This document shows positions 24,009 through 47,985 of a stretch of DNA of 64,000 bases, piece after piece. The position numbers and the translations under genes are program-made. Under the pieces are notes generated by a model. It did no database searches. It saw only the letters and a list, made by a program, of their open reading frames with translations, and was not told where the DNA came from. The first letter of the stretch is position 1; each line of letters starts with the position of its first letter. The stretch comes from an uncultured PS1 clade bacterium (GTDB taxonomy: Bacteria > Pseudomonadota > Alphaproteobacteria > RS24), in contig CACNWB010000004.1 of assembly GCA_902624095.1 (NCBI GenBank), forward strand, positions 38,125 through 102,124, read 5' to 3'.

Positions 24009-24076
24009 ACGAATCAAAACAGACTTTTCATTAAATGAGTCTTGCCTGAGAAAGCGAATAAAAGTAGAACACAAAT

Positions 24077-24111: not shown

Positions 24112-24774
24112 ATGCTTACCAAAAAACAATTTGAGCTATTGCTTTTCATAAATGAACGGCTTAAAGAAACTGGTGTGTCGCCCAGCTTCGACGAAATGAA
24201 AGAAGCACTGAACCTCAAGTCAAAATCAGGTATCCATCGGCTGATAACAGCACTTGAAGAGCGCGGGTTTATCAAGCGCCTCGCCCATCGCGCTCGCGCG
24301 CTCGACGTCATCAAACTGCCTGACAGCATGTCGACCAGTCTTACCGCACCGTCACGCACCACTACCCCGCCGCCTGCGGCCAATGATGACCGCAGTGTCA
24401 GCGTGTCCGTCATGGGGCGCATTGCGGCTGGCACACCCATTGAGGCTTTGCAGGAAGAAATCAACCAGATCAGCGTGCCCATGGAAATGTTGCGCTCGGG
24501 CGAGCATTACGCGCTGGAAGTGCATGGCGATTCGATGATCGATGCCGGAATTTTTGACGGCGATACGGCGATTATCCAAAGCGGCAATACGGCCGAAAAT
24601 GGCGAGATTATAGTGGCGCTAGTTGAAGGCCACGAAGCAACGCTGAAGCGGCTGCGCCGCAAGGGTGAAATGATTGCACTGGAAGCCGCAAATGCCAGCT
24701 ACGAGACCCGCATTTTTCGGTCCGACCAGATCAGGGTTCAGGGTCGCCTCGTCGGGCTTATCCGCAAATATTGA
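24112..24774 (+). CDS. lexA: SOS-response repressor LexA
   Basis: [25 protein letters not shown] w[16 protein letters not shown] cleavage region; [14 protein letters not shown]. Confidence 0.95.
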
Positions 24775-42324: not shown

Positions 42325-45300
42325 CTACAATTCTTCGACATGCAAGACGCCGGGCAATGCCTTGATGGCGCCGGTAACACGCGGTGTGATGACAAAATTA
42401 TCGGCAAGACGCAGTTCCACCTCACGCGCCTGTGACATCATCACAAGCGAAACGGTGCCGCCTGTTTTATGGCCTGCTTGGCGCGCCTCCGACAGGCGCT
42501 TTTTAAGCCCCGCACACGCTGCCGGTTTTTCAACAAATATCCGCAAGCCCTCAGACGCATTGCCAACTACCTGATCAAGCGGTCGTAACCTATTGGCAAT
42601 CATGCGTATTTGCCCGTCTTCGCGCTCAACCTTGACAGTAGCAACAATCAAGACACCGACATTCAAAAACTCACGGGCCTCGGAAAGCGCTTCCGAAAAA
42701 ACCGTAATTTCGGACTGCCCGGTCACATCCGACAGCGAAACAAAGGCGAGCGGGCCGCGTTGCGACCTGCGCTCATCAATGCGTGTGACAACACCGGCAA
42801 TCATCAACTCCTTTTCAACCCGCTTTTCCAAATTCGCAAAGGCCACAATGCGCGCGCGCTTCATGGCTTTTTGATAATCATCAAGCGGGTGCCCAGAAAG
42901 ATAAAAGCCGATGGCATCAAATTCATGCGCCAACCTGTCCATGGCCGACCACGGGTCAGCGCTTGGCAAGACCGCGCTTTCCGCTATTTCCGCTTCGCCG
43001 AAAAGGTTTTCCTGCTGGGTTTTTCTCTCATTTTGGGCGATATTCGCCTCGCCCAGCAGTATGTCGACACCGGCACTCAACCGCGCCCTGTCGGGCTCAA
43101 GACAATCCAGCGCACCGGCGGCAATGAGGTTTTCCAGCAACTTGCGGTTCAGCCCGAGCCCCCCCCGTACGCCGCGCAAAATCAAACACATCCTTAAATG
43201 CGCCGGCCTCTTCGCGGTTGGTCACAATTTCGTGCATGGCTTGTGTTCCAACATTACGAATAGCCGACAGCGCATAAAAAATCGAGTTGCCCTCTATCGC
43301 AAACTGTACGTCAGATCTATTAATATCCGGTCTCAGAACATCAATGTCGCGGTCGTTGGCGTCTTGTTTGAAAACCGCCAGCTTGTCGACGCGTTCGAAA
43401 TCAAGTGACATGGAAGCTGCAAAAAAGGCAACCGGATAATTGGCTTTCAGATAGGCTGTTTGATAAGCGATGAGCGCATAACCAGCCGCATGGCTTTTGT
43501 TAAACCCGTAACCAGCAAATAATTCTACTAAATTATAAATTTGCTTCGCCTTCTTTTTGTCTACGCCATTGCTGACTGCGCCTTCAATAAAACGCGCCTC
43601 CTGAGCTGCCATTTCTTCTTTCTTTTTCTTGCCCATTGCCCGCCGCAGAAGATCGGCCTCGCCCAGCGAAAAGCCCGAAAGTGTCTGCGCAATTTGCATA
43701 ACCTGTTCCTGATAAATCATCACGCCATAAGTTTCAGCCAATAGCGGCTCTAGTGACGGGTGCATATAGTCTGGATCTTCTTCTCCATTTTTGCGTGCGA
43801 TATATTTTGGGATATTGTCCATCGGCCCAGGCCGATAAAGCGCGACAAGCGCAATTATGTCTTCAAAAGCATCTGGTTTCATTTTGCGCAGCACATCGCG
43901 CATACCAACACTTTCCAGCTGAAACACGCCGACAGTGTCGCCACGCCCCAAAAGCTCAAAAGTCGCCGCATCGTCCAACGGCAAATTGTTGATATCAATG
44001 TCTACACCAGTGCCTCTGAGCAGTTCCACCGCTTTTTCAAGCACGGTCAGCGTTTTCAGCCCTAGAAAGTCGAACTTTACGAGCCCCGCCCGCTCTACCC
44101 ATTTCATATTGAACTGCGTTACCGGCATGTCCGATTTCGGGTCACGATAAAGTGCCACTAGCTCCTTCAGCGGCCTGTCGCCAATCACCACACCGGCGGC
44201 ATGCGTCGAGGCGTGTCGGTAAAGCCCTTCCAGCTTCAACGAAATGGAAATCAGCTCGGCCACCTGCGGGTCGCTGTCGCGGGCTTCACGCAAGCGTTCC
44301 TCTTGAGCAATTGCTTCTGCCAACGTTACCGGATTGGCCGGATTGTTTGGCACCAACTTGGCGAGACGGTCGACTTGACCATGCGGCATTTGCAAAACGC
44401 GCCCAACATCGCGCAGCACAAGGCGCGCCTGTAATTTGCCGAAAGTGATAATTTGCGCCACCTGATCGCGGCCGTATTTCGACTGTACATAGGAAATCAC
44501 CTCATCCCGGCGCGACTGGCAAAAGTCAATATCGAAATCCGGCATCGAAATTCGTTCGGGGTTTAAGAATCGCTCGAAAAGCAAATTGAAGCGCAACGGG
44601 TCAAGATCGGTAATCGTGAGCGCCCAGGCCACCACCGAACCGGCACCGGAGCCGCGACCGGGGCCAACTGCTATATCCTGGGCTTTGGCCCATTTGATGA
44701 AGTCAGCAACGATAAGGAAATAGCCAGGAAATCCCATTTTTCCGATAACGTCCAGCTCGAAATCAAGCCGCTGAAAATAATCGGCTTCGGGTGCCGAGGC
44801 GGATACTTGTTGCAATCGCGCCCGCAGCCCCTCGTCGGCCTGGCGGCGCAATTCGGCCAGCTCATCACCTTCCGCAAAGGCAGGCAAAATAGGTTGGTGT
44901 TCGGTCGGCCTGAAAGCGCATCGCTGGGCAATCTCGACCGTATTATCAAGCGCCTCCGGCAAATCGGCAAACAGTGCCACCATTTCTTCGGCGCTTTTTA
45001 ACCTATGGTCGGGCGTTAGCCGCCGTCGGTCTTCTTCATTCAGATAGCGGCCCTCGGCAATGCAAACGAGCGCGTCATGTGCGCGGTAATCATCTTCGGA
45101 GGCAAAATAGGTCTGATTGGTTGCCACCAGCGGCACCTCGCGAGCATAAGCCAATTGCACCAGAGCGTCTTCAACATCCGCCGGCGCACCGTCGGCATAG
45201 CGTTGCAGTTCAATGTAAAGACTGTCTGAAAATATGCCCTGCAATCTTGCCAGCACATCTTCGGCAAGCCCAGCACGTCCGGCGCTTAAATGCAGGTTCA

Positions 45301-45766
45301 CCGGCCCTTCCGGGCCTCCTGTCAGACAGATAAGACCAGCACCATGCGTGCCAAGTAGGTCGGCATCAATCCCTACCGCGCCATGCGCACGGTCTTCCAG
45401 ATGGGCGGCACTTACCAGCGCCATGAGGTTTCGGTAGCCAGTTTCATTTTTAACTAATAATGCAAGGCTACATGGCGGTTCGTCATCTGCACCGAAATAA
45501 ACCGACAAAGTGGCGCCAATAATGGGCTGGATGCCGAGCGCGGCCATGGTTTCAGAAAATTCAAGCACTCCAAACAAATTATTGCGGTCGGTCACTGCCA
45601 GCGCCGGCATACGCATGGATTGGGCGGCGCGCGACAAAAGATGAATCGGCAACGCCCCTTCGAGCAGTGAAAATGCACTGTGCACACGCAAATGTATGAA
45701 TTTTGGCACCAGGAGCTGACGATCTGACTGTATTATTTCCGCTTCCAAAATAATTCCCTGAAGCAA
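42325..45766 (-). CDS. dnaE: DNA polymerase III subunit alpha, reading frame interrupted at a G8 tract (43159-43166)
   Basis: ORFs 43097..45766 ([19 protein letters not shown]...) and 42325..43191 (...[16 protein letters not shown]...) are consecutive parts of one DnaE; reading 7 instead of 8 G restores [28 protein letters not shown]. Confidence 0.92.
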
Positions 45767-45865
45767 CGACTCACATTAAATCACTATTTTAAAGATTGTG
45801 GCATTCCTGTCATGGTGAGGGAGCACCATTTGGGGGGATAAGTGGGTTTACAGGCGGATAAAGTT

Positions 45866-45967
45866 TTAAGCGGCCAGCGCCGCGCCAATGGTACCCCACA
45901 ATAAAATCGCATAGCCCATGGCAAACAGAGCGGTTAGCGCCAAAATGTCTTCAACAAGATCTGTCAT
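45866..45967 (-). CDS. Small predicted membrane protein, 33 aa, SOS-box controlled
   Basis: Translation MTDLVEDILALTALFAMGYAILLWGTIGAALAA*; GGAAGG SD (45975-45980) 7 nt before ATG; hydrophobic span of about 22 residues; promoter with TTGACA and perfect GTTC-N7-GTTC box upstream. Missed by the track, probably on length. Confidence 0.7.
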   Translation of the reverse strand: MTDLVEDILALTALFAMGYAILLWGTIGAALAA

Positions 45968-45992
45968 CGGTTTTCCTTCCGTAGTGAATACA

Positions 45993-46021
45993 AATATGTT
46001 CCTGTTTTGTTCACTTGTCAA
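45993..46021 (-). promoter_or_regulatory. Putative sigma70-type promoter of the 33-aa gene: -35 TTGACA (46016-46021), 17-nt spacer, -10 CATATT (45993-45998)
   Basis: Direct reading of the minus strand: TTGACA-AGTGAACAAAACAGGAA-CATATT. Confidence 0.6.
45998..46012. promoter_or_regulatory. LexA (SOS) box, alphaproteobacterial consensus GTTC-N7-GTTC
   Basis: Plus-strand GTTCCTGTTTTGTTC, exact match, located between the -35 and -10 of the 33-aa gene. Confidence 0.75.
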
Positions 46022-46064: not shown

Positions 46065-46736
46065 TCATTGAAGAATGCCGCGTTCCAAACGTACTATCCG
46101 ATCGGCTCGCTCGGCCAGCGTCGTGTCGTGGGTTGCTAGCAATACGGCGGCCTGCACCTCGCGCGCCAAATTAAGCAACAATTCGGCAATGACGGCACCA
46201 TTGGCTCCGTCCAAACTGCCCGTCGGCTCATCGGCCAGAATTACATCCGGTCGCGCTACAAGCGCGCGCGCAATCGCCACACGCTGTTGTTCGCCACCCG
46301 ACAATTGCGCAGGCAAATGCTCCAACCTGTCGGTTAGACCGAGTTTTGCCAGAATATCCAAGGCCGCTGCACGCGCTGCGTTACCGGCCTGCCCGCGCAA
46401 GCGCAACGGCAACATAACATTTTCAAGCGCGCTGAATTCTGGAAGCAGATTATGAAACTGGTAGACAAATCCAATATGCTGTAATCGCCCGCGCGTGCGC
46501 AAGCCATCATCTTCGGTTGGCAGCACGCGGCCATTTACCAGAATTTCTCCTGAAGCGGGCTTTTCCAAAAGCCCCGCAATATGCAGCAAACAAGATTTGC
46601 CGGAGCCCGACGGGCCCAAAAGGGCAACCGTTTCACCTGCTGCAATGGTAAGGTCGACACCGTTTAGTACTTCAAGACGCCGACCGGCCTGATCAAAGCT
46701 CTGATAAATGCCGCGCAGTGAAAATCGATCACTCAT
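46065..46736 (-). CDS. lolD: Lipoprotein-releasing ABC transporter ATP-binding protein
   Basis: Walker A LLGPSGSGKSCLLHIAGLLE; LSGGEQQRVAIARAL; ILADEPTGSLD; start trimmed to MSDRFSL. Confidence 0.92.
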   Translation of the reverse strand: MSDRFSLRGIYQSFDQAGRRLEVLNGVDLTIAAGETVALLGPSGSGKSCLLHIAGLLEKPASGEILVNGRVLPTEDDGLRTRGRLQHIGFVYQFHNLLPEFSALENVMLPLRLRGQAGNAARAAALDILAKLGLTDRLEHLPAQLSGGEQQRVAIARALVARPDVILADEPTGSLDGANGAVIAELLLNLAREVQAAVLLATHDTTLAERADRIVRLERGILQ

Positions 46737-47985
46737 AGCGCAAGGCTTCCACTGGGTCGAGCGAGGCGGCACGCCACGCCGGATAAAGTGTTGAAAGAAA
46801 CGACAGGGTAAGCGCCATGGAAAGCACCTGCACAATGTCTGACATCACAAGACGCGCCGGCATGCGTTCGAGAAAATAAACTTCCGCTGGAAAAAGTTGC
46901 GCGCCGGTAATCATCACCAGAAGCTGGCGGATCTCTTCAATATAGGCACAGAAAACAACGCCGAGACCGAAACCAGCCAGCGACCCGATTACGCCAATGC
47001 TGGCGCCAGTGATGAAAAAAACTCGCAAGACCATACCCCGACTGGCCCCCATGGAGCGCAACACAGCAATATCGCGATGCTTGTCGCGCACTAGCATGAC
47101 CAACCCCGACACGATATTGAGCGCCGCCACCAGCAAAATCAGGGTCAGAATGAGGAACATGACATTGCGTTCGACCTCAAGCGCTCCGGCCAGCGTACGA
47201 TTGGACTGTTTCCAGTCAACCAGCGAAACATCAAGTCCAGCGGTGTTCTGCAAATCCTCGCGATAGTCTTCCACCTTGTCGGGGTCGTCTAGTATAAGTT
47301 CAATGGCGCCCGATTGGACGCTTTCACTGAATAATCCCTGCGCCGTCTCAAGGCCGGAAAACATGATGTTCAAGTCATATTCAGACAAGCCAATGCTGAA
47401 AATGGCCGCAACGCGTAACTGCTTAATGCGCGGAGTAGTGCCAAATGGCGTAACCGTTCCGCGCGGCGCAATAAGCGTCACCGGATCGCCGATACCAATG
47501 CCGTAACGCTCGGCAAGACGCAAACCAATGGCCACTCGCCCGCTTTGTGACAGATCGTCAAGAGCACCAGCGCGCACATTGCCAGCCAGCGCTGGCAGGC
47601 GCTTCAGTGCGTCGGTTGACATGCCGCGCAGGACAACGCCGCGCACCGCCTGTCCGGAAGACATCATTGCCTGGCCGTCCACCAGCGGTGTCGCCAGCAC
47701 GACCGGCGGCAGTTTCTGCAAACGCGCCACGGTTGCGGCGCGGTCTTCAAATTGCCCGTTCCAGGGCCGCGCAACGACATGGCCACTAACGCCCAAAATG
47801 CGATCCAGAAGGTCGGCGCGAAATCCGTTCATCACGGCCATAACAACAATCAGTGTAGCCACCCCCAGCATGATGCCGAGAAAAGAAATAATGGCGATGA
47901 TGGAAATAAAACTCTCGCGGCGGCGCGCCCGCAAATAGCGCCCGGCCAACTGCCATTCCAACCTGTTGAACGCCCGCGTCACCAA
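46729..47985 (-). CDS. lolC: Lipoprotein-releasing ABC transporter permease (LolC/E type)
   Basis: ARYLRARRRESFISIIAIISFLGIMLGVATLIVVMAVMNGFR; C-terminal YPAWRAASLDPVEALRYE. Confidence 0.92.
   Translation of the reverse strand: MVTRAFNRLEWQLAGRYLRARRRESFISIIAIISFLGIMLGVATLIVVMAVMNGFRADLLDRILGVSGHVVARPWNGQFEDRAATVARLQKLPPVVLATPLVDGQAMMSSGQAVRGVVLRGMSTDALKRLPALAGNVRAGALDDLSQSGRVAIGLRLAERYGIGIGDPVTLIAPRGTVTPFGTTPRIKQLRVAAIFSIGLSEYDLNIMFSGLETAQGLFSESVQSGAIELILDDPDKVEDYREDLQNTAGLDVSLVDWKQSNRTLAGALEVERNVMFLILTLILLVAALNIVSGLVMLVRDKHRDIAVLRSMGASRGMVLRVFFITGASIGVIGSLAGFGLGVVFCAYIEEIRQLLVMITGAQLFPAEVYFLERMPARLVMSDIVQVLSMALTLSFLSTLYPAWRAASLDPVEALRYE

Follow-up and report, generated by a model that had tools for sequence, protein, structure and literature searches.

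Two tiny SOS-controlled membrane peptides provide the background to the locus described here: TisB of Escherichia coli, whose helix is charged and amphipathic and bears Lys and Asp residues, and SidA of Caulobacter crescentus. SidA is a 29-aa inner-membrane inhibitor of division, controlled by LexA, with FtsW and FtsN as interaction partners (PMC4211646). Its gene is CCNA_02004 (PMC10769358), with a re-annotated start codon (PMC4117421), and in the older numbering dnaE is CC1926 and lexA is CC1902 (PMC1839093). No CCNA number for dnaE was found in the literature searched. In the older numbering, we take sidA to be CC1927.

In Caulobacter vibrioides DSM 9893 (L205), the ORF immediately before dnaE is preceded by a LexA box and encodes a 29-aa membrane peptide. 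The same 29-aa ORF, likewise behind a LexA box, stands directly upstream of dnaE in a genome whose PopZ is identical to what we take to be the C. crescentus PopZ sequence. An in-frame upstream ATG in C. vibrioides gives a frame of 40 aa as against 29 aa, which would explain a mis-annotated start and fits the published re-annotation of sidA. From length, control, position, gene numbers, and start re-annotation, we conclude that the C. vibrioides ORF can be taken as SidA. Most Caulobacter and Phenylobacterium loci show a homologue of it, some of them without an exact box.

The window analyzed here is a stretch of 64,000 nucleotides from an uncultured PS1 clade alphaproteobacterium, in which a minus-strand ORF between lolD and dnaE encodes the 33-aa product MTDLVEDILALTALFAMGYAILLWGTIGAALAA (Table 1). 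The elements that an earlier note had read from the minus strand (TTGACA, a 17-nt spacer, CATATT, GGAAGG, and the 33-aa ORF) are all present as described, and an independent promoter search recovers the same promoter, with 10 of 12 consensus matches. The exact alphaproteobacterial LexA box that the note placed in the promoter spacer is there as well: the putative operator GAACAAAACAGGAAC has the form GAAC-N7-GAAC and lies between the −35 and −10 hexamers. The same window does encode lexA, as had been claimed. A bare match of this kind is not rare (two occurrences of GTTC-N7-GTTC in the window, against 1.7 expected), so its significance rests on position and conservation.

Table 1. Features of the peptide locus and related genes in the window
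Feature	Position in window	Strand	Basis
Peptide gene (33-aa single-TM product, probable sidA ortholog)	45866..45967 (ATG at 45967, stop ends at 45866)	-	ORF; present in 25 of 28 genomes searched in the family; pN/pS well below 1
Shine-Dalgarno GGAAGG	45975..45980	-	Sequence; purine-rich block kept in genus alignment
-10 hexamer CATATT	45993..45998	-	Sequence and independent promoter search; conserved in genus
-35 hexamer TTGACA	46016..46021	-	Sequence and independent promoter search; conserved
Putative LexA operator (plus strand GTTC-N7-GTTC)	45998..46012	-	Exact GAAC-N7-GAAC; exact box in 25 of 25 relatives
lexA, presumed repressor	24112..24774	+	TIGR00498, 171.6 bits, above cut-off
dnaE (DNA polymerase III alpha), synteny anchor	42325..45766	-	NCBIfam PRK05673, 1274 bits; two overlapping frames
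LolD-type ABC ATPase, second synteny anchor, opposite dnaE	46065..46835	-	Best NCBIfam match TIGR02211 LolD, 5e-70, below curated cut-off
Probable separate dnaE promoter, ATGACA-N16-TAAAAT	45786..45813	-	Promoter search; conserved in 4 genus members

The best 19-residue segment of the peptide (residues 8–26 of 33) has a hydropathy of 1.87, and the product is predicted to be a single-helix membrane peptide; when five peptides were scanned against Pfam and NCBIfam, no match exceeded the threshold. The window peptide contains no Lys or Arg, its acidic residues stand only at positions 3, 6, and 7, and residues 8–33 are uncharged. The SOS-type promoter and the tiny hydrophobic product would also suit a TisB-like toxin, which would depolarize the inner membrane and induce dormancy, probably with an antisense RNA as antitoxin. 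We consider such a toxin improbable here: the helix is uncharged, the leader of only ∼20 nt has no room for a regulated leader of the TisB/IstR type, and both the locus and the profile link reported below point to SidA. The earlier note had identified no antisense or antitoxin RNA, and our Rfam search, which sees described RNA families, likewise gave none above gathering score. Of the SidA- or TisB-like logic proposed in that note, the SidA part is supported (same dnaE locus, control, and profile similarity), and the TisB part is disfavored by the missing Lys and Arg, the short leader, and the lack of an antisense RNA match.

Twenty-five of the 28 genomes searched from the window's family contain the peptide, with identities of 94%–100% within the genus and mostly 50%–66% in other genera; one genus of the family has a shorter and more diverged form. 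One relative of the window peptide reads MKNILEDIAAICTLLGMGTAIIMWGSIGQALAG. A lolD-like or dnaE neighbor, usually both, is recovered around the gene. In all 25 peptide-bearing genomes an exact LexA box lies just upstream of the peptide, usually at the same promoter position, and its letters are mostly TTGACAnnnGAACAAAAnnnGAACATATT or close to this. Codon comparison with the nearest relative gives eight synonymous and no nonsynonymous differences, and over all pairs compared, pN is 0–0.06 versus a pS of 0.04–0.67. The conservation check suggested in the earlier note therefore gives a clear outcome, the box being kept throughout and pN/pS lying far below 1 rather than near it; to judge from these comparisons, the ORF encodes a protein and is under strong purifying selection. 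We also considered a chance ORF beside a chance LexA-box match, a reading to which the expected frequency of the bare pattern lends some ground. Since peptide, box, and promoter are conserved across the family and the class, this reading is refuted, and its probability is negligible.

A second conserved promoter-like site precedes dnaE, which makes independent transcription of the peptide gene likely. The search detected no terminator separating the two genes; this, together with their adjoining position on the same strand, would fit an upstream ORF or leader of dnaE, in which the LexA promoter raises the replicative polymerase during the SOS response and the peptide is incidental. We hold this to be very improbable, given the strong purifying selection on the amino acids, the promoter-like site that dnaE has of its own, the gap between the two genes, which varies between genomes, and the finding that SidA of Caulobacter, when overproduced, works as a protein in its own right (PMC4211646).

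The dnaE gene reads as two frames, of 889 and 288 aa, that overlap at window positions 43097–43191. Of the 1146 positions of the DnaE profile, the first frame covers those up to 862, and family members such as G009 have dnaE as one frame of 1159 aa; the split is probably a sequencing or assembly frameshift. At the start of dnaE (window positions 45740–45766), ATT followed by an in-frame TTG is found, versus ATG in relatives; either a base error or the use of a rare start codon would explain this. A TTATCCCC block (45830–45860) in the gap that separates dnaE from the peptide gene is conserved in the genus; the corresponding stretch in L094 holds TTATCCACA, which is DnaA-box-like.

Two surveys proposed in the earlier note, of small ORFs upstream of dnaE and of the GTTC-N7-GTTC pattern, were carried out on 110 dnaE-upstream regions from alphaproteobacterial genomes, anchored on the DnaE N-terminus. 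Of the 105 regions that come from other families than that of the window, 20 have an exact box within 450 nt; over 105 regions, other spacings gave zero to four, the reversed pattern two, and shuffles a mean of 1.07. In most box-bearing regions the box is followed by a hydrophobic ORF of 29–45 aa, and LexA-boxed predicted membrane peptides occupy this same place in at least 12 alphaproteobacterial families (survey families f1, f5, f10, f41, f57, f63, f70, f80, f116, f118, f121, and f160). None of the Cypionkella, Pseudorhodobacter, and Dongia loci examined showed the peptide gene, so its wide distribution in alphaproteobacteria falls short of being universal. SOS control of the predicted membrane peptide, as the note had proposed, is strongly supported by the comparative evidence. 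Some Caulobacteraceae (L113, L193, and L204) have two tandem LexA boxes, 18 nt apart, before the peptide gene, which suggests tighter repression.

Profile–profile comparison connects the window peptide with the Caulobacter peptide by way of intermediates, which were picked by box, position, and hydropathy and not by sequence motif, their start codons being chosen by eye. The window family matches the intermediates at 95.5% (E = 1.5e-8) and the Caulobacteraceae match them at 96.1% (E = 3.3e-9), with none of 200 column shuffles as good in either case. The direct comparison of the window family with the Caulobacteraceae is weak (13.6% probability; three of 200 shuffles as good). The alignment is almost ungapped from a common start, with an acidic residue, an AL-x-S/T-V/L core, and the helix in register. 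When trained on nothing but the intermediates, an HMM picks out, among 1399 candidate sORFs, the window peptide at 4e-5 and one Caulobacteraceae peptide at 9e-5. On the basis of locus, control, and the transitive profile link, we regard the window peptide gene as probably a sidA ortholog.

The N-termini of the two peptides differ: that of the window is acidic and free of Lys and Arg, and the C. vibrioides peptide has two Arg. Given this charge, their topology could differ. Together with the strong divergence in sequence and a firm SidA link that runs only through the profile chain, the charge difference would fit an SOS-induced membrane peptide that shares descent with SidA and in this lineage has another partner or acts on a step other than septation. 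We think this unlikely, although less so than the toxin or leader readings, as the lineage has retained the locus, the promoter, the length, and the central AL-x-S/T-hydrophobic motif, and the genome encodes FtsW. Published SidA suppressors are reportedly ftsW F145L and A246T; F145 and A246 are both conserved in the FtsW of this genome, a weak sign, as such residues may be conserved anyway.

The window's genome, which is incomplete (73% complete), has 28 exact boxes, most of them inside large ORFs. Exact boxes with AT-rich spacers just upstream of a recognizable gene are found only at recA (L023), imuA (L011; ImuA profile match 1e-12, below its cut-off), and the peptide gene. The box of lexA itself has one mismatch (GAATAAAAGTAGAAC, window positions 24056–24070), so that autoregulation may be weak in this lineage.

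Sequence comparison supports the gene, its promoter and box, their conservation, the purifying selection, the locus, and the profile link to the Caulobacter peptide, and from these we infer how the gene would act. It is likely, in our judgment, that the gene is an ortholog of Caulobacter sidA, is repressed by LexA, and has as its product a tiny inner-membrane peptide by which division is delayed after DNA damage via FtsW/FtsI/FtsN. LexA bound to GAAC-N7-GAAC between the −35 and −10 hexamers would block RNA polymerase, and RecA-stimulated self-cleavage of LexA would free the promoter, giving SOS induction. The peptide would span the inner membrane with a single helix and keep the FtsW/FtsI/FtsN septal synthesis complex inactive, blocking division until repair is done.

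What is new here is a divergent SidA-type member, implying that SidA, known from Caulobacter, is widespread beyond it; the brake described in Caulobacter appears to be both old and widespread in alphaproteobacteria. A Caulobacter peptide thereby becomes a gene family that can be traced by locus and LexA box across at least 12 families, and its natural variants, which number in the dozens, offer a way to map how the septal machinery is stopped by a helix of 30 aa. This suggests that, even where genomes are small, alphaproteobacteria couple DNA damage to division as a core element of their SOS response. On balance we lean toward a wider interpretation, in which the SOS checkpoint gene sidA is ancient in alphaproteobacteria and bound to its place before dnaE. 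If so, it would have been overlooked since neither annotation nor similarity searches pick up peptides of 30 aa; a division brake would belong to the minimal SOS core in streamlined genomes like this one, with about three exact-LexA-box genes (recA, imuA, and sidA); and co-evolution with the septal FtsW complex would account for the strong divergence of SidA.

Like sidA of C. crescentus, the window gene has a LexA-box promoter, encodes a predicted single-helix membrane peptide of ∼30 aa directly upstream of dnaE, and shows profile-level similarity through the intermediates. It differs from SidA in its length of 33 aa, its acidic, Lys- and Arg-free N-terminus, its extended WGTIGAALAA tail, and the little direct identity that remains; at the locus, lolD adjoins the window gene, whereas in C. 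vibrioides (L196) the upstream neighbor of sidA is a nucleoside-hydrolase-like gene on the opposite strand. With TisB it shares the logic of an SOS-controlled tiny membrane peptide, but not the charged amphipathic helix, the long leader, a found antisense RNA, or the locus. YneA and SosA of Firmicutes resemble it, by description, in the logic of an SOS-induced membrane inhibitor of division; they are larger proteins, in other phyla. DidA of Caulobacter is likewise a DNA-damage-induced small transmembrane division inhibitor, but its induction depends on DriD instead of LexA (PMC4211646); the LexA box at the window gene makes the SOS route the relevant one.
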